Shown: piece by piece, positions 11,418 to 57,394 of the stretch
Layout: every line of letters begins with the position of its first letter
Position numbering within the stretch: position 1 is the first letter of the stretch
Notes under the pieces: generated by a model
Seen by the model: the letters and a program-made list of their open reading frames with translations, nothing else
Databases searched by the model: none
What the model was told of the DNA's origin: nothing
Program-made: the position numbers and the translations under genes
Source: Candidatus Thiodictyon syntrophicum
Lineage (GTDB): Bacteria > Pseudomonadota > Gammaproteobacteria > Chromatiales > Chromatiaceae
Direction of reading: 5' to 3'
Assembly: GCF_002813775.1 (NCBI RefSeq)
Contig: NZ_CP020370.1
Span: 6,225,501 to 6,289,500 of the forward strand
DNA length: 64,000 nucleotides

Positions 11418-14400
11418 TCAAGCACTGACGGCGGCCGGCACCGTGCGATTGCGGCCCTGTGCCTTGGCGCGGTACAGGGCCTCATCGGCCAGTCGCAGCA
11501 AGCGCTGCGGCGACGACTCATCCTGGGGAATCACCACGGCGACACCGGCACTCACCGTGACATGCCCGATCACCGATTCGGCATGGGGTATCGCGCAAGC
11601 TTCCAACCCGGTGCGGACGCCCTCGGCCAGGTGCAACATGCCCGTGAGGTCAATGCCCGCGGCAATGAAGGCGAACTCCTCCCCCCCATAGCGGGCCGCC
11701 AGATCGCCAGCCCTGCGGGCCTGGCTGCCGAGCACCCCGGCGAGCGTGCGCAGACACTCGTCGCCGGCCTGATGGCCATAGCAATCATTATAATTCTTGA
11801 ACCAATCCACGTCGAACATCGCCAGGGCGAGCGGCGCGCCGGAGCGGGCGGCGCGCCGCCATTCAGCCAGCAGGGTCTCATCGAAGCAGCGGCGATTGGC
11901 AATTCCCGTCAGGCCGTCACGGACGCTCAACGTCTCCAACAGGCAATTGGCCGCTTCCAATTCGCGGGTGCGGTCGGCGACCTTCTGTTCCAGGGACTCG
12001 TAGAGCCTCACATTCTCGATTGAAATGGCCAACTGATCGCAGAGCACGGACACCGTCTCGATCCCCTGGGCCGTGAATGCCGCGCGAAACAACCGATTTT
12101 CCAGGACCAGACAGGCCCTGATCCGTCCTTGCACGAAGATCGGCAGGGCCAGCAGTGAACACAGCGGCAGGCCGGCGAAGTGGGGGTCGCCGGCGAAACG
12201 GCTGTCGATTACCGCGTCCTCGGACACCACTGGCTGCAAGGTCGTCAGGACCAGTCGCCGCCCGGCGGATGAGACCAGCCCACGTTCTTCCGCCTCCGAC
12301 ACCGGCATCCGCTCCAGCCGCTCCACCCCCCGCAACCCGCCTTCCAGGTACCAGCGCCCAGCCTCATCCAGCATGAAGAAGCGCACGTCGGTGGCGCCGG
12401 TCAGTTGGCCCACCAATTCAGTCACCCGCGCCACCAATTGAGCGAGCCTGGTTTCCGACGCCAGGGCCTGCATGCCGCGCAGCAGGGCCTGGTGGTTCAA
12501 TGCCTCACCCTGGATGTCAGTGGTATCGACCTGATCGCGGGCGTCCAGAAAGGGCAGGCGCGCGCACATCGCCCGCACCTTGCCGTGAGCGCCCCACTGC
12601 CGATAGAGCGCCTGCGCCCGCCTCAGGAGCGGACGGCCGGCCTGTTCCAACCCGCGCCGCAGATAGAACTGTCCGGCCCGCTCGGTGGCCAAGCCATGAT
12701 GCCAGGGGCGCTGGTGGGCCTGCGCCTGACACATGGCCCGTTCAAATGCCGACTGGGCCTCCCAGGGCCGCTCCAGGGCGTCCAGCCGCTGCGCCTCCAC
12801 CAGTTCCCAGAGGTGGCTGAAGTTCATCGGGGCATCGGCCGCGCGGGCCGCGAGCCAGGCCTGGTTGGCGGCCACCTTCTCCAGCAATGGCGGGTGCTCG
12901 GTCGCGGGCGTCGCATGGATCCTCTCAATCAGCACCAATGAGTGCAGCAGATTGCCCAAGGCGATCAGGTAATAACCGGGAATACCCGACAGGAGGCCCT
13001 GGGCCGCCTCCGCATGGCATGCCAGTGCCTCCCGATCGTCAAACAGGCAGGCCGCCAGGCCCCGGTAAATGTGAAAAGTAACCAGCGCGGCGGAGTTGCC
13101 CTGGATCGCCGCCTGATGCGTCTGCTCATTGAAGTCGGCATCGTCGAAGCTTCCCGGTCGCTGCGTCTTGCCTTCCAGTGCGCGCACCAGTTGTCTGAAC
13201 GGAAGACTCGTCTCTTCCCCGAGGCGGTGCGCGTGCTTGCGGCAGAAACCGAGCGCGGCCGTGCACGCCGCGCCCATTTGCGCGAGATCGCCGCAGACCT
13301 CGATGGTGGCCCGCAGCGTCGTGCAGAATGAGTAACCAACCAGTTCCAGGTCGCCCGCCCGCAGGGCCGCGTCGATCGTAGCGCGGGAGTGGCGGAGGTC
13401 CTCCTCTACCGGCCGAAACCAGTGGCTGGAAAAGAGGGCAAGCACATGCCGGACGCGGGCGGTTTCAGCACCCCCTTCACGGGCCATTCCGGTCGCCAAT
13501 GCCATGCAGGCCAGGTGGTAACCGGTGGCGTAGTCACCGCGAAACACGATGGCCGGCAAGCAGGTCATCGCCAATGCCACAAGAAATAGATCGCTGTAAC
13601 CGTGCTCGAGCCACCAACGGCTAAGCCGCAGCAGGATCCAGATGGCCGGCAGCGGTTGCTTGAAAAAAGCCGTGAACAGCATGCGGTTCATGATCCTGGC
13701 GGCACCAAGAAGCACCTCGTCGGCCAGCGCGGGACTCGTTGGCAGTCGCTCCAACGCGCCCTGGTCGATATGCCGATACAACAGGTCGAGTTCCTCTTCC
13801 AGGAGGTGCGGCAGGTCATCCGTCGGCACCGTCACGCCGAGTGAATCCAATCGCCTGCAGCCGAGCGCGAAGGCATCCAGATAGCGCACGCGAGCGGTCA
13901 AACTCATGATCTGTATGCACGTCGGCCCCACCAGTTGCAGGGGCACCGCAGCCCGGAGCCCGAGTAACTCAAAGACCTCGTCCGCCTCACAATGATGTGA
14001 TTGGCTGTAGAGCACCAAGTGCAACTCGGCATAGAGTGCAAAGGTGTCCTCCTGTTCGTTCTGCCAGGCGTCCGCCGGCAACAGGTCGGCGGCTATCCGC
14101 AGGAAGCGCTCCGCGGTCGCGAAGGAACCGGCCTGGCGCGCCCGCAAGGCCGCACCGATGAACAAAGGACGTGCGGTGGCCCGCTCGGCACGGTCGCGGA
14201 TCAGCGGGGCGGCGGCGGCATAGTGCTCCGCGGCGGCGAATTGATGCACCGATGCGGCCCCCGCCTGGACGAAACGCCGGGCCATGGCCAAGTGCAACCG
14301 GCCCCGTGAGGCGTCGTCCCGGAGCTGGTAGACCGCCTGCGCCATCCGGTCGTGACAGAACCGCAGCCGGGCAGTCGGATCAGCCCGGCCGAACGCAACC

Positions 14401-16376
14401 GCGCTCGGCGTGACGAGGATCCCCAGTTCCAAGGCCGGCGCGAGCCGCTCGACGAGGGTCGCCGGGGTGTCGCCCGTGGCCAGTGTCAGGGTGCCCAAGT
14501 CACAGGCGGTGCCCACGCAGGCGACGGCGACCAGGAGGTCGGCGGTCGCCGTCGGCAGGCGGGCCAGCCGCCCGGCGAGAAAGTCCACCACATTGGCGCT
14601 GGCCGGGTGTAGTGCGATGGCAGCGGCGTCCCACCGCCACTGCCCGCATTCCGGGTCGGGCAACAACTGGCCTTCCCGGTGCAGGGTGTTGACGAACTCG
14701 ACCGCAAAAAAGGGGTTACCGCCGGTCTTGTCGTTCACGAGCGCAGCCAATGGCGACAGGGTGGCGGCAGGCTGGTGCAGCATGTCCCCCAGCAGCCCGA
14801 CCAGGTCTTCACACATCAGATTCGACAAGGTAATGACCAATGCCGGCGGCCCGGTGGCGGACCGCTGGCACAGCAACCGCGCCACCGGATGGGCATTATC
14901 GACCTCGTTATCGCGCCAGGCACCGACCAGCAGGAGGCCCGCCAGGTCGGTCTCATCCAGCAGGGCACGAATGAAGTCCAGCGATGGCTGGTCGGCCCAT
15001 TGCAGGTCGTCGAGAAAGAGCACCAGAGAGCGCGCGGGCGCTGCCACCTGGCGCAGCAGCGCGACAAGCAGGGTGCGCAGGCGCACCTGTGACTCGAGCG
15101 GTCCGAGCACCGGCGCGGGGGCCCGCGGGCCCAGCACGGCCTCCAGTTCGGGCAGGACCTCGAACAATGCACCGGCATCCGGACCAAGCCCCGCCAGCAA
15201 CCGCTCGCGCCACTGGGCGAGCGCCGCCGCGGGTTCGGCCAGCAGCCAGTGGCACAATTGGCGCAGACATTGCGTCGGCGCCAGGAACGGCCGGTCGCGC
15301 CGGTACTGGTCGCACTTGCCCGTGATGAACAGCCCCCCCGCGAGGGTCACGGGCCGGTGGAGTTCATTGATCAGCGCCGTCTTGCCGACCCCCGCATATC
15401 CGGCTACGAACAGCCCCCGGGGACCGTCTCCCGGCCGGTCCCGGGTCAGGTTCCTAAAGGCCGCCAGCAGCGTCTGCAACTCCTGCTCGCGACCATACAG
15501 ACGGCGCGGCGGGCGCGGCGACAGGGGCAGGTCGTGTTCTCTGAGTTGCCATTGCCCGGCCGGCTCGGTGACGGCCAGGGCCCGGCGCAGGCGCCGCAGG
15601 TCGTGGGCCAGGCCCGCGGCGCTTTGATAGCGGTCGTCCGGTTCCTTGGCCAGCAGGGTCAGGATCAGGTCGGACAGGCGCGGCGGCAACCAGGGCGCCC
15701 GGGTCACGGGCGGGACCGGCACCGCGGCGAGGTGGGCATGGACCAGCGCCAGGGTGTCGGTCCCCTCAAACGGTGGGGCGCCCGTCGCCAGGGCATAGAG
15801 GGTGGCCCCCAAGGAGTAGAGGTCGGCGCGGTAATCGACCGGTCGATTCATCCGTCCAGTCTGTTCGGGGGAGCTATAGGCCAGGGTACCGAGGATGCGA
15901 CTCGGGTGCTCGAATGGCGGATTTTCCTCGGTACAGACCGTGGCGAGATCAAAGTCGGTGAGTTGCACCTGCAACTCGTCCGGTCCGCCATGATCCGACC
16001 CGCGGGGCCGGATCAGTATCCCCCCGGGATGGATGTTCCGGTGAATGACCCCGCGCGCATGAATGGCGGCCAGGAGGTGCGCCAATGCTTCGGACAGGGC
16101 GAGCAACGGCGCAAGTTCCCCCTGGCACCCCGCCGGGCTGAGCCTGATGCCGCCAAAGTCCTCGATGGTCAGTTCCCGGGCGGCCGGGTCGAACCGCACC
16201 AGACGCGGACAACCCGCCACCCCCTGCAGGCGTTCAAGGATACGTTGCTCGTTACGCAGGGCGGCCAGGGAAGCGCCATCATCGAGCGCCTGTTTGACCA
16301 GTAGTGCAGACCCATCGACCGGGTCGGTGGTGCGATACTCGCGAAACGCCTGGCCGACGCGCAATACGGTCATCAT
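11418..16376 (-). CDS. Ser/Thr kinase-like, AAA/TPR, GAF and GGDEF signalling protein
   Basis: 1652 residues. Domains in order: a protein-kinase fold (about 1-265) with HRNIHPGG (112-119) and DFD (141-143); a STAND-type ATPase with Walker A GYAGVGKT (326-333) and Walker B LVLFLDDLQWAD; a long helical TPR-like region; a GAF domain (about 1310-1460); and a C-terminal GGDEF domain with GGEEF (1564-1568). An RAGD inhibitory site lies five residues before GGEEF. The output is predicted to be cyclic-di-GMP synthesis. In the kinase the catalytic HRD aspartate is Asn114 and DFG is DFD, so phosphotransfer is doubtful. AGGAG lies just before the start at 16376. Confidence 0.9.
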   Translation of the reverse strand: MMTVLRVGQAFREYRTTDPVDGSALLVKQALDDGASLAALRNEQRILERLQGVAGCPRLVRFDPAARELTIEDFGGIRLSPAGCQGELAPLLALSEALAHLLAAIHARGVIHRNIHPGGILIRPRGSDHGGPDELQVQLTDFDLATVCTEENPPFEHPSRILGTLAYSSPEQTGRMNRPVDYRADLYSLGATLYALATGAPPFEGTDTLALVHAHLAAVPVPPVTRAPWLPPRLSDLILTLLAKEPDDRYQSAAGLAHDLRRLRRALAVTEPAGQWQLREHDLPLSPRPPRRLYGREQELQTLLAAFRNLTRDRPGDGPRGLFVAGYAGVGKTALINELHRPVTLAGGLFITGKCDQYRRDRPFLAPTQCLRQLCHWLLAEPAAALAQWRERLLAGLGPDAGALFEVLPELEAVLGPRAPAPVLGPLESQVRLRTLLVALLRQVAAPARSLVLFLDDLQWADQPSLDFIRALLDETDLAGLLLVGAWRDNEVDNAHPVARLLCQRSATGPPALVITLSNLMCEDLVGLLGDMLHQPAATLSPLAALVNDKTGGNPFFAVEFVNTLHREGQLLPDPECGQWRWDAAAIALHPASANVVDFLAGRLARLPTATADLLVAVACVGTACDLGTLTLATGDTPATLVERLAPALELGILVTPSAVAFGRADPTARLRFCHDRMAQAVYQLRDDASRGRLHLAMARRFVQAGAASVHQFAAAEHYAAAAPLIRDRAERATARPLFIGAALRARQAGSFATAERFLRIAADLLPADAWQNEQEDTFALYAELHLVLYSQSHHCEADEVFELLGLRAAVPLQLVGPTCIQIMSLTARVRYLDAFALGCRRLDSLGVTVPTDDLPHLLEEELDLLYRHIDQGALERLPTSPALADEVLLGAARIMNRMLFTAFFKQPLPAIWILLRLSRWWLEHGYSDLFLVALAMTCLPAIVFRGDYATGYHLACMALATGMAREGGAETARVRHVLALFSSHWFRPVEEDLRHSRATIDAALRAGDLELVGYSFCTTLRATIEVCGDLAQMGAACTAALGFCRKHAHRLGEETSLPFRQLVRALEGKTQRPGSFDDADFNEQTHQAAIQGNSAALVTFHIYRGLAACLFDDREALACHAEAAQGLLSGIPGYYLIALGNLLHSLVLIERIHATPATEHPPLLEKVAANQAWLAARAADAPMNFSHLWELVEAQRLDALERPWEAQSAFERAMCQAQAHQRPWHHGLATERAGQFYLRRGLEQAGRPLLRRAQALYRQWGAHGKVRAMCARLPFLDARDQVDTTDIQGEALNHQALLRGMQALASETRLAQLVARVTELVGQLTGATDVRFFMLDEAGRWYLEGGLRGVERLERMPVSEAEERGLVSSAGRRLVLTTLQPVVSEDAVIDSRFAGDPHFAGLPLCSLLALPIFVQGRIRACLVLENRLFRAAFTAQGIETVSVLCDQLAISIENVRLYESLEQKVADRTRELEAANCLLETLSVRDGLTGIANRRCFDETLLAEWRRAARSGAPLALAMFDVDWFKNYNDCYGHQAGDECLRTLAGVLGSQARRAGDLAARYGGEEFAFIAAGIDLTGMLHLAEGVRTGLEACAIPHAESVIGHVTVSAGVAVVIPQDESSPQRLLRLADEALYRAKAQGRNRTVPAAVSA

Positions 16377-39792: not shown

Positions 39793-39982
39793 CGACCCCA
39801 ACGGGGTCGAACATACCAGCCCAGGGCAACGCCCTGGGTATGGGGTATCGCAGAGCCCAGCCCTGAAAGGGCGTGACATAACGGCGCGGCGCCTTATGTC
39901 ACGCCCTTTCAGGGCTAAGCGGAATAAATAACGCTATCCCAGGGCGGTGCCCTGGGCTGGTATAACGCGCCCCTGCGGGGCT
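39793..39982. repeat. Structured palindromic element A, copy 1
   Basis: Nested inverted arms: GACCCCAACGGGGTC, CATACCAGCCCAGGGCAACG, GCCCTGAAAGGGC (39860-39872) facing GCCCTTTCAGGGC (39903-39915), then CCCAGGGCGGTGCCCTGGGC and a final GCGGGGC hairpin. It lies between typA and the end of the GAF genes, where it could end or stabilise both transcripts. Confidence 0.8.
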
Positions 39983-40043: not shown

Positions 40044-41048
40044 CTACCGAACCCGCGCCCCGATCCCACCGGAGCCCCTGGAGTCGCGGAAGGAATCCCA
40101 GGGGCCAAACCCGGAGTCATCGTCGCCCCAGGGGTCCGACCGCTGGTCGGCGGCCGCAACGCTGCCGTCGACTACCCGCTGCAGCCGCTCGAGCACATCC
40201 GCGGCGAGGCGGGCATTACCCTTACTTTCGTGATAGTGGGCGATCTCCATCAGCTTGGAAACGGCGACCTGCGCCTGCTCGGTCCCGGATTCCTGTTCCA
40301 CAACCTTCAGGTACAGGCCGGCCGCCAGGTGCAGCCGACCCTCACCGTGGCGCTGCTGCGCCATGCGCAGCATCAGGTCGCTGCTGGTGCGATCCAGGTC
40401 CCCGCGGCCGGTGCCGACGGCGGGCCCGGCGACCCGGGCGGGAGGGACGGGCGGGAGGGACCGGACGGACGGGGAACAGGAGGCCCGGGAACCCTCGCTC
40501 ATAGGGCAAACCCAGGGCTCGGATTGACCCGAGGCGCACAGGACCGGGGCGATGAGGCTCCCGATGATCTCCATCAAGGCGAGATCGGACTGGGGGGAGC
40601 ACTCCTCATCGTAGCGGCGCAGTGCGGCCAAGACCCCGATCGGCAACTGCTCACGCACGATGGGCACGGCAAGAAAGGCGATCGGCTCGGGCGGGATTGC
40701 GTCCCGGTCTTCGACGCGGGCCAGAAAGCCGGGGTCCTGATGCACGTCGGCGACCAACACGGCCACGCCGGTTTCAAAGACCCGCCCCGTCACCCCCTCC
40801 CCGACGCGGTAGCGGCCGCGACCCACCTCTACCGGGGTCAGCCCGTGGGCGTAGCGGACGTAGATCTCCCGCGCGTCGGGGTCCGCGATCAGTACCCGTC
40901 CGCGCACCAGCCGGTGGGACACAGCCAGATAGCGCAGGATGTCCTGGATACGGGACTCGGCATCATCCCCACGGCTGACGATGCGGGAGATTTGCAGCAG
41001 TGCCAGCAAATCGGCCCCGGGAGGGGTGTGGCTCAAGGGTGTATCCAT
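40044..41048 (-). CDS. NifA-like GAF-domain protein with TPR-like tail (copy 1)
   Basis: 334 residues. The N-terminal GAF domain (about 12-180) closely follows the sensory domain of NifA: RIQDILRYLAV, YAHGLTPVEVGRGRYRVGEG, GVAVLVADVHQDPGF. There is no AAA+ or DNA-binding domain. The C-terminal 110 residues are helical and TPR-like (QRHGEGRLHLAAGLYLKVV). A partner-binding adaptor that responds to a small molecule or redox state is likely. Good Shine-Dalgarno (CCGGAG) before the ATG at 41048. A perfect 18-bp palindrome lies about 70 bases upstream. Confidence 0.75.
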   Translation of the reverse strand: MDTPLSHTPPGADLLALLQISRIVSRGDDAESRIQDILRYLAVSHRLVRGRVLIADPDAREIYVRYAHGLTPVEVGRGRYRVGEGVTGRVFETGVAVLVADVHQDPGFLARVEDRDAIPPEPIAFLAVPIVREQLPIGVLAALRRYDEECSPQSDLALMEIIGSLIAPVLCASGQSEPWVCPMSEGSRASCSPSVRSLPPVPPARVAGPAVGTGRGDLDRTSSDLMLRMAQQRHGEGRLHLAAGLYLKVVEQESGTEQAQVAVSKLMEIAHYHESKGNARLAADVLERLQRVVDGSVAAADQRSDPWGDDDSGFGPWDSFRDSRGSGGIGARVR

Positions 41049-41113
41049 GAAGAACTCCGGTTGACAGGATCATCTTCATAGTTATGCCGACCGCCCGTCG
41101 CAAGCCAGTAAAT

Positions 41114-41131
41114 ATGCGTAAATTTACGCAT
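41114..41131. promoter_or_regulatory. Perfect 18-bp palindrome ATGCGTAAATTTACGCAT
   Basis: It lies in the 125-base gap between the two GAF genes, 66-83 bases upstream of the start of copy 1. Its size and symmetry are those of a dimeric regulator site. The cognate regulator is unknown. Confidence 0.6.
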
Positions 41132-41173
41132 TCTTAACCAATTGATCCAAGCGCGACGGGCCGGGGACCCGCG

Positions 41174-42133
41174 TTACCGAAGCCGCGCCGCAATGCCGCC
41201 GGAGCCTCCGGAGTCGCCGAAGGAGTCCCGGTCGGTGGTCGCGCCACCCCGGTCGCCCCAGGAATCGAGCCCCCGACCACCGTCCGCACGGCCGCCGCCC
41301 TCGTCGAGCGCCCGCTGCAGCCGATCCAGCACATCGGCGGCCAGCCGGGTAGCGCCCCGACCCTCGTAATACCCGGCGATCTCCAGCAGCTTGGACTTGG
41401 CGAGCAGGGCCTGCTCGCTCCCGTGATACTGCCCCGCGACCTTGAGGTAAAGGTCCGCCGCCTGGTGCAGCCGCCCTTGCGCGTGCCGCTGCGCGGCCAT
41501 CCGCGCCATCAGGTCGCGGCTGGCGCTGTCCGGGTCCGCGGCACCCGGACTGACCAGGGAGCGCGCCGACCGCGGCTCCTGCGGCATCGGCGCGGCCCAG
41601 GGCCGGGCCTGCGGATCGGTGCACAGGATCTGGGCGATCAGGGTCGCGATGACCTCCATCAGTGCAAGATCGCACTGGGCGGAGCGCTCGTGGTTGCGCA
41701 GCCGGTGGGCGGCCAGGACCCCGACCGGCAGGTGGTCGCGCACGATCGGCACGGCAAGAAAGGCGATCTGCTCGGGCGGCAGCGCGCCCCGGGTCACGGC
41801 GCGGGCCAGATAGCCGGGTTCGTCGTGCACATTGGCGACCAGCGCGGCCTCCCCGGTCTGGAAGACCCGCCCGGACACGCCTTCACCGATACGGTAACGG
41901 CCGCGCTCCAGTTCGGCCGGGGTCAGGCCGTGGGCGTAACGGATATAGATCTCGCCCGCGGCGGGGTCCGCCAGCATGACGCGGCCGCGCACCAGCCCGG
42001 GGGAACCGGCCAGGTGGCGCAGGATGTCCTGGATACGTGACTCGGCGTCGTCCCCGCGGGAGACGACGCGGGCAATTTGCTGGAGCGCCAGCAACTCGGC
42101 GCCGGGGGCGGTGTCGATTTCGGTGGTGTCCAT
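41174..42133 (-). CDS. NifA-like GAF-domain protein with TPR-like tail (copy 2)
   Basis: 319 residues from the ATG at 42133; a start 14 codons upstream (42175) would lie beyond a CRP-like site and is less likely. It is colinear with copy 1 over its whole length (RIQDILRHLAGS, YAHGLTPAELERGRYRIGEG, QRHAQGRLHQAADLYLKVA, and the same GGSGGIAARLR end), so the pair arose by tandem duplication. Divergence is large enough to suggest distinct ligands or roles. No output domain is present. Confidence 0.75.
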   Translation of the reverse strand: MDTTEIDTAPGAELLALQQIARVVSRGDDAESRIQDILRHLAGSPGLVRGRVMLADPAAGEIYIRYAHGLTPAELERGRYRIGEGVSGRVFQTGEAALVANVHDEPGYLARAVTRGALPPEQIAFLAVPIVRDHLPVGVLAAHRLRNHERSAQCDLALMEVIATLIAQILCTDPQARPWAAPMPQEPRSARSLVSPGAADPDSASRDLMARMAAQRHAQGRLHQAADLYLKVAGQYHGSEQALLAKSKLLEIAGYYEGRGATRLAADVLDRLQRALDEGGGRADGGRGLDSWGDRGGATTDRDSFGDSGGSGGIAARLR

Positions 42134-42151
42134 GGGATTTCCGATTGAAAG

Positions 42152-42167
42152 TGTGACTTGAGTCACA
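42152..42167. promoter_or_regulatory. CRP/FNR-family-type site TGTGACTTGAGTCACA
   Basis: TGTGA-N6-TCACA matches the CRP consensus in both half-sites. It lies 18-34 bases upstream of the ATG of GAF copy 2 and just downstream of a possible extended -10 (TGCATAAT on the minus strand). Its position would suit repression more than activation. Confidence 0.6.
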
Positions 42168-42720
42168 TTATGCAATCATTGGACCAGGCGCCGCCGGACT
42201 TGCCTGAAATCCGGCACCGAGGCCCCGGCGAAAAGCCCGTCGCGAACACAATAAATATTTCTTATCATTGGCTTACGCACCATTGCCGGATCTCCGCCCG
42301 GGACCCGCGCCGAGCCTCGTCAAGCCTTGGCGATTGTTCGCGTTCCTCCACGGACTCAGGCGCCTTCCAGGACCATGCGCGGCTGAGTGTGCATTTTCGG
42401 ACGCTTCCTGCCGCGGCATTGCCCCAAGCCGACGGCGTTTGGTCAGGCGGCGTTGGAAAGCTAACATGGACCCCCCTGCCCAGGCCGGCTACCGCTGCCG
42501 CTAAGTCAAGCGCCGACGGCCAACCCTCTCGTTCCCACGCTCCCGCGTGGGAATGCCGTGCGGGCGCTCCGCGTCCGGTCTTGGCACTGGACGCAAAGCG
42601 CCCGCACTTAGCTCCCACGCAGGAGCGTGGGAGCCAGAAGGGCCTAGCTTAGCGGCAGTGAGGCCGAGGTCCTTAGTGATCGGCGACGGGTCATGCCCCC
42701 CACTCTTCCAAGGTGCCCAG
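42168..42720. other. Intergenic region with REP-like element
   Basis: About 550 bases without a gene. From 42495 to 42660 there is an element with ends GCCGCTAAGTCAAGC and GCTTAGCGGCAGTG. Within it are hairpins CTCGTTCCCACGC / GCGTGGGA, GCGGGCGCTCCGCGTCC and CTCCCACGCAGGAGCGTGGGAG. Related motifs occur near 325-410. Confidence 0.55.
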
Positions 42721-44316
42721 ATGTCTTTACCGCGCTCCCTATCGTTACCCTCCTGGCCCCTGCTCGCGTCGCTCATCGCGCCCCAGGCCGGGGCGGTCTG
42801 CCCGCCCGGCGGGGGTCTCACCCTGCTGCATTTCAACGATTTCCACGGTCAACTGGAGTCCTACACGGACCCCCGGGAGCAGGTCGAACGCGGCGGCATC
42901 GCCCACCTCGCCGGCACCATCGCCGACCTTCGGGCGCAGGTCCAGGCCGGTCACCCGGGCCGCCCGGTGCTGCTGCTGTTCGGCGGCGACCTGCTGCAAG
43001 GCACCCTGACCTCCAGCCTCTTTCTGGGCGTGCCGGACCTCGCGCTCTTCGGGCGCATGGGGGTGGACGCCGCGGTGATGGGCAATCACGAACTGGACTA
43101 TGGGCAGGACACCTTTCGCCGCCTGGCCGCGCTTGCCCCCTTCCCGATCCTGACCGCCAACGTTGAATCCAACCCGGAGCCGCTGCCGGTGCGGCCCCAG
43201 GTGCTCATCGAGCGGCCGGTCGCACCGGGAACGGGCGCGGTGCGCGTGGCGGTCCTGGGACTCACCGCCCCGGAACTGTCCACCGCCACCCACCCGCGCA
43301 ACATGATCGGTCTGAGCGTGGAAGAGCCGGTGGCCGTCGCGGGGCGCCTGGTGCCCGACCTGCGTGAGGGGGCCGACCTGATGGTCGTGCTGTCGCACAT
43401 GGGGATCGCGCAGGACCGCCGCCTCGCCCGCACCGTCCCCGGGATCGACCTGATCGTGGGCGGCCACAACCACAATCTCTATACCGAGCCGGTGCTGGAG
43501 GGCGAGACGGCCATCGTCCAGGTCGGCGAGCGGGGCGGCTGGCTGGGACGCATGGACTTCGACTGCCGGGACGGACACCTGGCCCGCACCGGTTACCAGG
43601 TCCTACCGATTACCGCCGCGAGCCCCGAGGACGCGCCGATGGCGGCCGAGGTCCGGCGCATCGCCGCGCAGGCGAACCTGGAACTCGACCAGCAGGTCGG
43701 CACCAGTACCCGGGGACTGAGCGCCCAGCGTGAGCTGATCCGCCGGGGCGAGGCCCCCTTCGGCGACTTCGTCGCCGACCTGGCGCGCGAGATCACCCTG
43801 ACCGAGGTCGCCCTGTTCAACGGCGGCGGCTTTCGCGCGAGCATCCCGGCGGGTCCGGTCACCCTCAAGGCAATCTACCTGGCCATGCCCTTCCGCAATG
43901 AACTGGTCGTCGGCAATCTGAGCGGTGAGCAGCTCCAGGCCGCCCTGGAGCGCAGCGCCGCGCTGGACCCGCTGGACAACCCCGGGGGCTTCCTGCAGGT
44001 CTCCGGGCTGCGCTATGTCATCGCCGGGGGACACCTGGCCTCCGCCACCCTGGCCGGTGCACCCATCGACCCGGCGCGGCGCTATCGCGTCGTCACCTCG
44101 GACTACCTGGCCGCCGGCGGCGACGGATACACCATGCTCAAGGCCATGGACAATCAGGTGATGACGGGGCGCCTGATCTCCGACATGGTGATCGAGGCCT
44201 TCCGCACCGCCAGCCCCATCGACCCGCAACCGGACGGGCGCATTCAGATTCAGGATTTACGCGCAGAGCAATCCGCGATCCCGGACGCCCGGAGGCGCGT
44301 AAATCCTGAAAAATAA
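42721..44316 (+). CDS. 5'-nucleotidase/2',3'-cyclic phosphodiesterase family protein
   Basis: 531 residues of the UshA-type family. A signal peptide (SLSLPSWPLLASLIAPQAGA) is followed by metal-site motifs HFNDFHG (37-43), GGDLLQGT (from 88), GNHELDYG (from 121) and GGHNHNLY. The C-terminal substrate domain carries NGGGFRASIP and the late YTMLKAMDN. It should hydrolyse extracytoplasmic nucleotides to nucleosides and phosphate. The ATG at 42721 gives the signal peptide directly. The 3' end lies inside a 16-bp inverted repeat (44249-44310). Confidence 0.88.
   Translation: MSLPRSLSLPSWPLLASLIAPQAGAVCPPGGGLTLLHFNDFHGQLESYTDPREQVERGGIAHLAGTIADLRAQVQAGHPGRPVLLLFGGDLLQGTLTSSLFLGVPDLALFGRMGVDAAVMGNHELDYGQDTFRRLAALAPFPILTANVESNPEPLPVRPQVLIERPVAPGTGAVRVAVLGLTAPELSTATHPRNMIGLSVEEPVAVAGRLVPDLREGADLMVVLSHMGIAQDRRLARTVPGIDLIVGGHNHNLYTEPVLEGETAIVQVGERGGWLGRMDFDCRDGHLARTGYQVLPITAASPEDAPMAAEVRRIAAQANLELDQQVGTSTRGLSAQRELIRRGEAPFGDFVADLAREITLTEVALFNGGGFRASIPAGPVTLKAIYLAMPFRNELVVGNLSGEQLQAALERSAALDPLDNPGGFLQVSGLRYVIAGGHLASATLAGAPIDPARRYRVVTSDYLAAGGDGYTMLKAMDNQVMTGRLISDMVIEAFRTASPIDPQPDGRIQIQDLRAEQSAIPDARRRVNPEK
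44249..44310. repeat. Perfect 16-bp inverted repeat at the 3' end of the nucleotidase gene
   Basis: TTCAGGATTTACGCGC (44249-44264) and GCGCGTAAATCCTGAA (44295-44310) are exact complements. The stop codon follows within six bases. No T-run follows on either strand, so it is not a standard intrinsic terminator. Confidence 0.75.
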
Positions 44317-53519: not shown

Positions 53520-53537
53520 CATTCTGGAGTGCGAGCG

Positions 53538-55022
53538 ATGAAACTGTTTGCGATCCGCGGCGGCATCCATCCCGAATACCGCAAAGAACTGGCGAGCGAC
53601 AAGGCGATCACCGCCCTGCCGATGCCGCAACGGCTGCGCATCCTGCTGCACCAGCACATCGGGGCCCCAGCCCGGCTGCTGGTCGCCGCCGGCGAGCGGG
53701 TCCTGAAGGGTCAGATGATCGCCCAGGGCCAGGGGCCGGTCTCGGCCCCCGCCCATGCCCCCACCTCCGGGTACATCGAGTCGGTCAGCGAGGTCACGGC
53801 CCCGCACGCCTCCGGCCTGGCGCAGACCGCCGTCGTCCTGGTGCCTGACGGCAAGGAGGAATGGGCGCCCCTGCCCACCCCGCTCGCCGACCCCCTGACG
53901 GCCGAACCGCAACTGATCCGCGACCTGGTGGCGCAGGCGGGCATCGTGGGTATGGGCGGCGCGGCCTTCCCGTCGGTGGTGAAGTTGCACCTGGGCACCC
54001 AGCGCAAGCTGGAGATGCTGGTCTTGAACGGCGCCGAGTGCGAGCCCTACCTCACCTGCGACGACCGGGTGATGCGCGAGCACCCCGACGAGGTGATCGA
54101 CGGCGCCCGTATCATGGCGCACGCCCTGGGCGCACCGCTGGTGATCATCGGCATCGAAGACAACAAGCCGGAGGCCCTGGAGGCCATGACCCGGGAGGCC
54201 GCCGCCTTCCCCGAGGTGCAGGTGCGCCCGGTCCCGGTCCAGTATCCCATGGGGTCGGAGCGCCACCTGGTGCAGGCCCTGACCGGCCGCGAGACCCCGG
54301 CCGCCAAGCTCACCGCCGACATCGGCGCCGTGGTGCACAATGTCGCCACCGCCCAGGCCATCCATCACGCGGTGCGCTTCGGGCGCCCCCTGATCGAGCG
54401 CGTCGTCACCGTGAGCGGGCGTGCCGTGCGCGAGCCGCGCAACATCCTCGCCCCCATCGGCGCCCCCGTCACCGCCCTGATCGACTTCTGCGGCGGCCTG
54501 GTGGGCGTGCCCGCGCGCCTGGTGCAGGGCGGCCCCATGATGGGCCAGCCGTTGCCGAGCCTGGACGTGCCGGTGATCAAGGGGACCTCCGGCATCCTGG
54601 CACTCAACGCCGAGGAGACCGGCGAGGCCGAGGCAGGCCCCTGCATCCGCTGCGGCACCTGCGTGGCCATCTGCCCCTGTGGTCTGGTGCCCCTGGAGAT
54701 GGCCGCCTTCATCCGCACGGACAACCTGGACGGCGCCAACAACCTGGGCGTGACCGAGTGTCTGTCCTGCGGGAGCTGCTCCTGGGCCTGTCCGTCCCAT
54801 ATCCCGCTGGTGCAGTATTTCAACTACGCCAAGGGGATGCTGAAAACCAAGGAGCGCGACCGGACCAAGCACGAGCGCACCAAGACCCTGACCGAGGCCC
54901 ATCGGGACCGGCTTGAGCGGGCCGCTGCCGCCAAGGCGGCGGCCGCGGCGGCCAAGGCCACCACCAAAGGAACCCCGCCGGCCGCCCGTCAGCCGCGGGC
55001 AGAGGAGCCGGCAGAGGCATGA
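53538..55022 (+). CDS. rnfC: Rnf complex subunit RnfC
   Basis: 494 residues. GMGGAAFPSVVK is part of the NADH/FMN-binding domain. Two ferredoxin clusters follow: CIRCGTCVAICPC and CLSCGSCSWACP. The C-terminal extension is short and alanine-rich, unlike the long tail of E. coli RsxC. The start is ATG 53538 with GGAG upstream; a GTG nine bases earlier is less likely. The stop overlaps rnfD. Confidence 0.94.
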   Translation: MKLFAIRGGIHPEYRKELASDKAITALPMPQRLRILLHQHIGAPARLLVAAGERVLKGQMIAQGQGPVSAPAHAPTSGYIESVSEVTAPHASGLAQTAVVLVPDGKEEWAPLPTPLADPLTAEPQLIRDLVAQAGIVGMGGAAFPSVVKLHLGTQRKLEMLVLNGAECEPYLTCDDRVMREHPDEVIDGARIMAHALGAPLVIIGIEDNKPEALEAMTREAAAFPEVQVRPVPVQYPMGSERHLVQALTGRETPAAKLTADIGAVVHNVATAQAIHHAVRFGRPLIERVVTVSGRAVREPRNILAPIGAPVTALIDFCGGLVGVPARLVQGGPMMGQPLPSLDVPVIKGTSGILALNAEETGEAEAGPCIRCGTCVAICPCGLVPLEMAAFIRTDNLDGANNLGVTECLSCGSCSWACPSHIPLVQYFNYAKGMLKTKERDRTKHERTKTLTEAHRDRLERAAAAKAAAAAAKATTKGTPPAARQPRAEEPAEA

Positions 55023-56095
55023 TGATCGAGACCGCGACTACCAGCGCGCCCTATACCCATTCGGCGGCCAGCGTTCAGAAGACCATGACCACGGTGATCC
55101 TGGCCCTGGTGCCGGCCACCGCCTTCAACCTTTATCTCTTCGGCTGGCCCGCCGTCTTCCTGTTCGCCGTCACCGTCGGCGCCTGCGCGGCCATGGAGGG
55201 CCTCGCCCTGCTGATCAGCGGGCGCCGCCTGATGCCCACCCTGGGCGACGGCTCGGCCGTGCTGACCGGTTGGCTGTTGGCCATGACGCTGCCGCCCTGG
55301 GCGCCCTGGTGGACCGGGCTCCTGGGGGCGGTCTTCGCGATCCTGCTGGGCAAGCAGATCTTCGGCGGGCTGGGCCAGAACCTGTTCAACCCGGCCATGG
55401 TGGCGCGCGTCGCGCTGCTCGTCTCCTTCCCGGTGGCCATGACCTCCTGGGTCGCCCCCCATCCGCTGTTCTGGACCGGCACCCCCGGGTTCCTGGAGGC
55501 CCTGGCGATCACCTTCGGCGGTCAGATACCGGACGGCTACAGTGCCGCGACCGCCCTGGGACTGGTGAAGACCGGACTCTCGATGGGCCAGACGGTATCC
55601 CAGTCCGTGGGGCAGTTGCCGGACCTGATGGACATGGGCCTGGGGCTGCGCGCCGGCAGCCTGGGTGAGACCTCCGCGCTCCTGATCCTGGCCGGCGGGC
55701 TCTTCCTGATCTGGAAAAAGGTCATTACCTGGCACGTCCCCGCGGCGATGCTGGGGACCCTGTTCGTGGCCGCGACCCTGGGGCACCTCGCCAACCCGGA
55801 GCGCTTCACCGACGGGACCTTTCAAATCCTGTCGGGGGCGGCCTTCCTCGGCGCCTTCTTCATCGCCACCGACTATGTCACCTCGCCGGTCTCGAAGACC
55901 GGACAGCTCATCTTCGGCTTCGGGGTCGGGCTGCTCACCTGGATCATCCGCAGCTTCGCCGGCTACCCGGAGGGGGTGGCCTTCGCGGTCCTGCTGATGA
56001 ATTCGCTGACCCCCATCATCGACCAGTACACCCGGCCGCGCCGGTTCGGACGGACCCGCCGGGGCGAGCCGCTGGCCCCCCAGGGGGACAAATGA
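55019..56095 (+). CDS. rnfD: Rnf complex subunit RnfD
   Basis: 358 residues with about nine helices. DGYSAATAL carries the FMN-attachment threonine (Thr178) in the SxAT motif; NLFNPAMVARVALL is also conserved. It is a membrane flavoprotein of the ion-translocating core. The ATG overlaps the rnfC stop, and the stop overlaps rnfG. Confidence 0.94.
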   Translation: MMIETATTSAPYTHSAASVQKTMTTVILALVPATAFNLYLFGWPAVFLFAVTVGACAAMEGLALLISGRRLMPTLGDGSAVLTGWLLAMTLPPWAPWWTGLLGAVFAILLGKQIFGGLGQNLFNPAMVARVALLVSFPVAMTSWVAPHPLFWTGTPGFLEALAITFGGQIPDGYSAATALGLVKTGLSMGQTVSQSVGQLPDLMDMGLGLRAGSLGETSALLILAGGLFLIWKKVITWHVPAAMLGTLFVAATLGHLANPERFTDGTFQILSGAAFLGAFFIATDYVTSPVSKTGQLIFGFGVGLLTWIIRSFAGYPEGVAFAVLLMNSLTPIIDQYTRPRRFGRTRRGEPLAPQGDK

Positions 56096-56721
56096 ACAAG
56101 AACAGTTCTCTCTATCACGGTCTGGTCCTGGGGGCCTTCTGTCTGGGCTTCGGGCTGCTGCTCGCCGTCACCGACGCCCTGACCGCCAAGGACATCGCCG
56201 CGCGGGCCATGGAAGACCGGCAGAACTCGCTGGCCGCGGTGATCCCCGACGCCATCCATGACAACAACCCGGTCGTGGACACCATCCTCCTCGACGTCGC
56301 CAAGGACGAGGGGCTGACGGTCTACCTCGCCAAGAAGGACGGCTTGGTAACCGGTGTGGCCTACGAGGTCAGCGGCATCGGCTACGCGGGTCGGATCAAA
56401 CTGATGCTGGGGGTCGGCGCCGACGGACGCGTCCTGGGTGTACGGGCCCTGGCCCACAAGGAGACCCCCGGACTCGGTGACAAGATCGAGATCAAGAAAG
56501 GCGACTGGATCGAGCGCTTCACGGGCCTGAGCCTGGGCCATCCGCCGATCGAGAAGTGGAAGGTCAAGAAGGACGGCGGCCAGTTCGACCAGTTCAGCGG
56601 GGCCACCATCACCCCCCGCGGCGTGGTCGGGGCCATCCGCGAGGGCCTGGTCTTCTTCGACGCCCGCAAACAGGAGCTGACCCAGCCGCAGCCCCCCCAG
56701 AAAGTGAACGAGGTACGCTGA
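56092..56721 (+). CDS. rnfG: Rnf complex subunit RnfG
   Basis: 209 residues: one N-terminal helix, then a periplasmic FMN domain with SGATITP, whose Thr172 binds FMN covalently through phosphate. Together with RnfD it provides the flavin relay. Start ATG overlaps the rnfD stop by four bases. Confidence 0.94.
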   Translation: MNKNSSLYHGLVLGAFCLGFGLLLAVTDALTAKDIAARAMEDRQNSLAAVIPDAIHDNNPVVDTILLDVAKDEGLTVYLAKKDGLVTGVAYEVSGIGYAGRIKLMLGVGADGRVLGVRALAHKETPGLGDKIEIKKGDWIERFTGLSLGHPPIEKWKVKKDGGQFDQFSGATITPRGVVGAIREGLVFFDARKQELTQPQPPQKVNEVR

Positions 56722-56722
56722 G

Positions 56723-57394
56723 ATGGCAACCGGATACGGCAGAATCGCCCGCGACGGACTCTGGGACAACAACGGGGTCCTGGCCATGCTGCTCGGCATG
56801 TGCCCGACCATGGCCATGACCACCAGCGCGACCAACGGCCTGGGCATGGGGCTGGCCACGGCGGTCGTCATGGCCGCCTCCGGGGGTCTGGTCGCCACCT
56901 TCCGCGACTACATTACCCAAGAGGTGCGGATCCCGGTCTATATCCTGATCGTCGCCTCCATGGTGACCTTGGTGGACCTGACGATGAACGCCTACATGCA
57001 CGACCTCTACAAGGTGCTCGGGCTCTTCATCCCGCTGATCGTCTCCAACTGCCTGCCGCTGGCGCGGCTGGAGTCCTTCGCCTCCAAGGAGCCGGTGCTG
57101 CCGTCGCTGGCGGACGGGGTCTTCATGGGCCTGGGCTTCACGCTCGCCTTGACCGCCATCGGCGCGGTGCGCGAGATCCTCGGTGCCGGCACCCTGTTCG
57201 CGGACGCCTCGCTACTGCTCGGCCCCGCGTTCAGCTTCATGGAGGTGCGGGTCATGCCGGAGACGATGGGGACCCTCATGATGATCCTGCCCCCGGGCGG
57301 ATTCCTGGTCACCGGGTTCCTGGTCGTCGGCAAGCGCATGATCGATGTGGCCGGCGGTAAAGCCATCCAAATGGGCGGCGCCCACGCCGTCTGA
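56723..57394 (+). CDS. rnfE: Rnf complex subunit RnfE
   Basis: 223 residues, six helices, homologous to RnfA, with GMCPTMAMTTSATNGLGMG and FIPLIVSNCLPLAR, the cysteine regions that pair with those of RnfA. Follows rnfG by one base. Confidence 0.94.
   Translation: MATGYGRIARDGLWDNNGVLAMLLGMCPTMAMTTSATNGLGMGLATAVVMAASGGLVATFRDYITQEVRIPVYILIVASMVTLVDLTMNAYMHDLYKVLGLFIPLIVSNCLPLARLESFASKEPVLPSLADGVFMGLGFTLALTAIGAVREILGAGTLFADASLLLGPAFSFMEVRVMPETMGTLMMILPPGGFLVTGFLVVGKRMIDVAGGKAIQMGGAHAV

Follow-up and report, generated by a model that had tools for sequence, protein, structure and literature searches.

The two colinear genes analyzed here, gene 1 and gene 2 of Candidatus Thiodictyon syntrophicum, encode members of a protein family that seems, from sequence searches, to be confined to the genus Thiodictyon. 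Each protein possesses an N-terminal GAF domain of the NifA type followed by a TPR-like tail. The family probably consists of sensor-adaptors derived from a decapitated sigma-54 activator, in which the promoter and the sensor were kept and a TPR output was gained, and its members would then be ligand-gated adaptors; we favor this reading with modest confidence. The window, i.e., the whole stretch of DNA that was analyzed (64,000 nucleotides), covers positions 6225501–6289500 of a 7.74-Mb genome assembled in three contigs. Its features are as follows.

41174–42133, minus strand: GAF-TPR gene 1 (P0001, 319 aa), from ORF call, Pfam, NCBIfam, structure model, orthologues and selection
40044–41048, minus strand: GAF-TPR gene 2 (P0002, 334 aa), from ORF call, Pfam, NCBIfam, alignment and tree
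41618–42106, minus strand: NifA-type GAF domain of gene 1 (residues 10–172), from Pfam above cut-off, model and PDB matches
41297–41533, minus strand: TPR-like tail of gene 1 (residues 201–279, four helices), from the model and weakly from TPR_14; genus-limited in the order sample
42171–42186, minus strand: sigma-54 type −24/−12 element TGGTCCAATGATTGCA, 53 bases before the start of gene 1; in 3 of 3 orthologues and two further relatives
42152–42167, minus strand: CRP-type dyad, read on the minus strand as TGTGACTCAAGTCACA, over the expected +1; conserved in all 4 orthologous promoters
41114–41131, no strand assigned: perfect palindrome ATGCGTAAATTTACGCAT in the intergenic gap of the gene pair; core with no second genomic copy

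The proteins of gene 1 and gene 2 were 62% identical. A third paralogue was found on the same contig (6171243–6172208, 63% identical), and the closest named relatives of the protein were from uncultured Thiodictyon (94% identical). Above the Pfam cut-off, both proteins matched GAF families only, with PF01590 scores of 39.9 and 43.5 bits versus a cut-off of 22.4. GAF matches numbered 33 in the genome, and the window also contains a minus-strand ORF of 1652 aa with a GAF domain (11418–16376; 51 bits). Similar to NifA and the NifA-type sigma-54 activators, the two proteins carry the same kind of GAF domain at the N-terminus, and gene 1 has a sigma-54 linked promoter. Different from these activators, however, they lack the AAA+ and HTH parts and have the TPR-like tail instead. 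Only the first ~155 positions of the NCBIfam nifA model TIGR01817 were matched, at 67.2 and 67.6 bits versus a whole-protein cut-off of 528.85, and both proteins thus failed NifA membership by this model. Moreover, neither the AAA+ sigma-54 interaction domain PF00158 nor a C-terminal Fis-type HTH was matched by P0001 or P0002 in the Pfam search; the parent-type activator described below possesses PF00158 as well as the HTH domain PF02954. The first-pass annotation had described two colinear genes with a NifA-type GAF domain and a TPR-like tail but without AAA+ or DNA-binding parts, and this description was borne out by the ORFs, Pfam, NCBIfam and the model. Its suggestion of a redox role, however, was not sustained: none of the cysteine residues was invariant in the alignment of the 11 family members, which also ruled out a redox/Fe-S cysteine reading.

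An AlphaFold2 model of the gene 1 protein was built from a 55-row alignment, an earlier 11-row model having been poor (pLDDT 47). It contained a GAF fold with block means mostly at pLDDT 79–95 and four helices at residues 201–279 in TPR spacing with pLDDT 82–94, while the linker and the C-terminal end were disordered. The structures nearest to the GAF model were the GAF domains of Aquifex Nlh2 and Nlh1, and the NifA GAF was in the same list (Z of 23.0, 21.9, and 18.9, respectively). The matches, which included PDB 4g3k, 4g3w, 4g3v, and 8jrc, concern the GAF part, as the structure-alignment (VIA-align) rows span residues 6–178 only. The Aquifex and NifA domains share this sensor-domain fold but are parts of full activators. 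By sequence, the assignment of the tail as TPR is weak: TPR_14 gave weak matches to the tails of 5 of 8 family members with a best E of 6e-4, and gene 1 reached E 0.49 and 11.7 bits versus a cut-off of 23.5. Across 8 aligned rows, the new tail had 19 invariant positions. Further comparison was made with the free-standing GAF protein NreA, which has a role with NreB. Similar to NreA, the family has a GAF domain without an output domain; NreA, however, has no TPR tail, and its profile was matched weakly at 13–16 bits, far below the NCBIfam cut-off of 175.

Whole-protein matches at E 1e-15 were found in 19 of 195 genomes of the order. Matches reaching the tail were found in 7 of the 8 sampled Thiodictyon genomes, of which 6 contained a total of 11 intact GAF+TPR genes. 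The family copies in the 3.0-Mb Thiodictyon genome G053 were broken and a genome search found no family member in the Thiodictyon genome G150, suggesting that the family is dispensable there. The tail profile at E 1e-5 matched none of the 187 order genomes outside the genus; among 398 genomes of the phylum, it matched the own genome and gave one weak match (E 2e-5) within a 3781-aa frame. In addition, a class search gave matches in 32 of 369 genomes, and those outside the own genome were all confined to approximately profile positions 1–197 of 324, i.e., to the GAF part only. Downstream of the GAF domain, a GAFTGA-type loop was kept at 27 of 29 class loci and in all 8 nearest order relatives, and these 8 were all full activators. 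Among the class loci, L103 possessed a Walker A motif without the loop by the pattern used, L115 was a GAF-only frame of 191 aa, and L099 broke off shortly beyond the loop. That the homologues might lie mostly within full activators, an outcome that the first-pass annotation had set against its own reading, is what was found outside the genus; inside the genus, the intact GAF+TPR genes were found instead. Among the papers listed in a literature search, none was found to describe sigma-54 activator derivatives with a GAF+TPR architecture. Likewise, a term search found no "GAF" in the main text of the papers on the Cad16 genome, mixotrophy and bioconvection.

A tree computed from 55 GAF domains united all 11 members of the family in one group with a support of 100/99, in which gene 2 was grouped with the copy at G158:C327. 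The family group was placed within a Chromatiaceae activator group (95/85) and next to four of its eight activators (97/74), and the own NifA was placed far from it. The GAF domain of gene 1 was 32% identical to that of the own NifA and about 46–52% identical to those of the parent-type activators (L019–L026), which are unnamed GAF-AAA+-HTH proteins of Chromatiaceae. The first-pass description of GAF adaptors without an output domain is anatomically correct; the label "NifA-like" has to be revised, given that the tree nests the domain among non-NifA activators and rules out a NifA origin. Similar to gene 1, the L019–L026 genes have a −24/−12 element equally far from the start and a dyad over +1; different from gene 1, they encode full activators, have a TTGTCGACAA-type dyad and lie in a gene cluster of their own. 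The 11 parent-clade rows shared 68 invariant GAF positions, 19 of which were also invariant in all 11 family members. The uniform changes of the family relative to the parent clade included Y68 to H, V142 to A, and Q160 to E.

At most loci read, the neighbors of the parent activator were a three-gene ABC transporter and OsmC, acyl-CoA-dehydrogenase-like, DUF302 and rubredoxin-reductase genes; the NitT/TauT look of this transporter was judged from the sequences. The parent-type cluster of other Chromatiaceae (L056–L063, e.g., L061:5961–14555) was sigma-54 linked, and its activator had a −24/−12 element of its own as well as a TTGTCGACAA-type dyad covering +1. A literature search gave no paper on this cluster. 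The parent-type activator was not found in the 8 Thiodictyon genomes, whose best matches were of the NifA type and 37–41% identical over the whole length. The acyl-CoA-dehydrogenase-like marker of the cluster was found in 0 of 8 Thiodictyon genomes in a search without positive control. From the tree and the promoters, we infer a single origin of the family from the 5′ portion of an activator gene of Chromatiaceae, comprising promoter and GAF coding region, followed by multiplication. The AAA+ and HTH parts of the parent gene would have been lost, with the tail in their place.

Sigma-54 promoters follow the consensus GG-N10-GC around −24/−12, and CRP-type sites follow TGTGA-N6-TCACA. The CRP-type box at 42152–42167, which reads TGTGACTTGAGTCACA on the plus strand, and the perfect palindrome at 41114–41131 were both located exactly where the first-pass annotation had placed them. 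In gene 1 and its orthologues from three further genomes (G061, G125, and G023), the −24/−12 element lies 53–55 bases before the start and is followed by the CRP-type dyad, although the surrounding DNA has diverged. The dyad was exact in three of these four promoters and had one change in that of G023; its retention in all four places it beyond chance. Scored with a hand-written consensus matrix, the −24/−12 elements of gene 1 and five relatives reached 9.7–17.0 and agreed with the sigma-54 promoter pattern. Scores of at least 9.5 within −75 to −45 were found for 6 of 11 family genes, which belong to two clades and cannot be counted as independent cases, versus all 7 scored parent genes, whose elements were at −50 to −57 with scores of 10.7–17.0. 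Of the remaining 298 genes at these loci, only 10 reached 9.5, all of them transporter (C2), OsmC (C7) or C18 genes of parent clusters. The 5 family genes without a good element included gene 2 (score 5.1) and the third paralogue of the own genome. In the relatives from G158 and G107, the element was at −66, with AAGTCAC 12 bases past its GC. This heptamer is the right half of the dyad and was also present in P0001, G125, and G023; G061 has ACGTCAC.

Allowing up to one mismatch, the TTGTCGACAA-type dyad directly followed the −12 element in 7 of 11 parent-clade genes and occurred in 0 of 11 family promoters; by chance, such a match occurred in 225 of 20,000 random 60-base stretches. Dyad enumeration across the parent promoters gave low counts only. 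Since the parents and the gene 1 group share the −24/−12 element and the position of the dyad, promoter and sensor seem to have been inherited as a pair, the sequence of the dyad itself being new in gene 1 and its orthologues. NtrC-type sites were absent from the 400 bases upstream of the 11 family genes, and the NifA-site pattern TGT-N10-ACA was seen upstream of these genes only inside the dyad over +1. The CRP-type letters also fit this pattern in 3 of 4 promoters, so that a CRP-family protein is a candidate binder of the dyad and not the sole one. The composite of −24/−12 element and dyad was exact only at gene 1 and its three orthologues in 8 genomes, with two one-mismatch matches elsewhere, which ruled it out as the mark of a regulon. 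The palindrome was also ruled out as a regulon site: a genome search that allowed 1 mismatch gave no other copy of its core, and hence no palindrome regulon is visible. With about 0.24 perfect 18-mers expected per window (4^-9 × 64000, even composition), the palindrome could be due to chance.

As a sensor-adaptor, the GAF domain would dimerize and bind a small ligand as in the activators. Without an AAA+ ring to gate, the ligand state would determine whether a partner protein is bound by the TPR tail, which would make the protein a ligand-gated adaptor. Gene 1 would be expressed under sigma-54 control through another of the cell's activators, and binding of a CRP-family protein at the start point would probably lower or tune this expression. 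As the neighbors of the paralogues differ, a regulator or an enzyme encoded elsewhere is a likelier partner than a neighbor. A ligand-dependent partner role is our best guess. Work on Azotobacter offers two working models, namely mixed complexes of the paralogous activators VnfA1 and VnfA3, and an accessory gating protein, VnfZ (PMC9542535). Similar to the proteins of this study, VnfZ has no DNA-binding part, and it gates the NifA-type activator VnfA3; different from them, it is homologous to a substrate-binding protein of transporters and not to a GAF domain.

The first of these models corresponds to a role as dominant-negative or co-regulatory subunits, in which mixed GAF dimers with a full sigma-54 activator (NifA or another of the NifA type) would damp or tune that activator and the sigma-54 promoter of gene 1 would close a feedback loop. 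Such a role is conceivable, given that VnfA1, VnfA2, and VnfA3 are described as interacting with one another, with VnfZ gating one of them (PMC9542535). Moreover, the long N- and C-terminal GAF helices, taken as dimer helices, are kept in the model, and gene 1 has a promoter of the sigma-54 type. We nevertheless consider it rather unlikely. The low identity to the GAF domain of the own NifA and the lack of a near parent among the genomes of the genus that were searched both speak against mixed dimers, and NifA already has a partner in NifL, which it adjoins in the genome (TIGR01817, 704.8 bits; TIGR02938, 526.2 bits). In addition, titration alone needs no conserved TPR tail.

The family is under purifying selection. 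In four close pairs compared by the Nei-Gojobori method, dN/dS was 0.17–0.24 for the whole protein, 0.13–0.21 for the GAF part, and 0.10–0.33 for the TPR part. The linker and the C-terminus were looser, with a C-terminal dN/dS of 1.34 between P0001 and G125. This pattern suggests that the family genes are functional rather than remnants. That they are truncated activator genes drifting to loss without present function is improbable: the broken copies of G053, the failure to find any in G150 and the fast-evolving linker and C-terminus would fit such decay, but the constrained GAF and TPR parts, the invariant positions of the shared new tail and a promoter conserved amid diverged surroundings would not.

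Gene 1 is divergent from a 5′-nucleotidase gene in 4 of 4 orthologous loci (window 42133–42721), and an acyltransferase/DsbB/DUF190/CrcB block is near the orthologous gene 1 loci. Other family members adjoin trp genes or TRAP-transporter genes. A shared functional neighbor was ruled out, as the neighbors of the paralogues are unrelated. A broken family remnant lies ~2 kb from a TypA gene at G053:C226:4201–4677, and gene 2 is likewise beside TypA in the window. Inverted-repeat elements flank the gene pair at window 39860–39920 and 42530–42640, with arms such as agccctgaaagggcgtgac and cccacgctcccgcgtggg.

The first-pass annotation had also connected the gene pair to an rnf operon 10 kb away. 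The rnf genes are real, with rnfC at 53529–55019 in the window about 11 kb from the pair, and in G125 about 12 kb separate the GAF gene from rnfC. In G061, the closest relative, however, the GAF gene is on C93 (22 kb), which contains no rnfC match, and rnfC is on C429; the GAF contig of G023 is just 13.9 kb, too short to show linkage either way. The genome contains two rnf clusters, one beside nifLA at 5.80 Mb (G000:C1:5800413–5805979) and the other at window 53529–57394. As the rnf cluster of the window is thus the second copy and its linkage is not seen in G061, no link to nitrogen fixation follows. Adaptors of nitrogen fixation or redox metabolism tied to this operon are therefore very improbable, the proximity in two genomes being outweighed by the different contigs in G061, the separate rnf copy at nifLA, the lack of an invariant cysteine and the trp and TRAP-transporter genes beside other family members.

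Thus, the frame of a NifA partner near rnf appears to be replaced by a genus-restricted family derived from the sensor half of a different activator. In a broader and more tentative reading of the sensor-adaptor family, which we regard as a serious possibility, an activator may have been converted within one genus to a non-DNA-binding signaling protein: the 5′ part with promoter and sensor would have been kept, the AAA+-HTH part would have given way to a TPR adaptor, and the operator over +1 would have changed from the TTGTCGACAA-type to the CRP-type in the gene 1 group. An activator that perhaps once regulated itself would thereby have become a ligand-gated adaptor under other regulators, in up to three copies. 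The sensors of sigma-54 activators usually control an AAA+ ring located on the same polypeptide. A sensor, and apparently also its promoter, that persists without the ring would provide a natural test of the functions that such a GAF domain can perform by itself. The family may therefore represent a fairly well resolved case of a regulator changing its kind, for which full-length living relatives are available for comparison.
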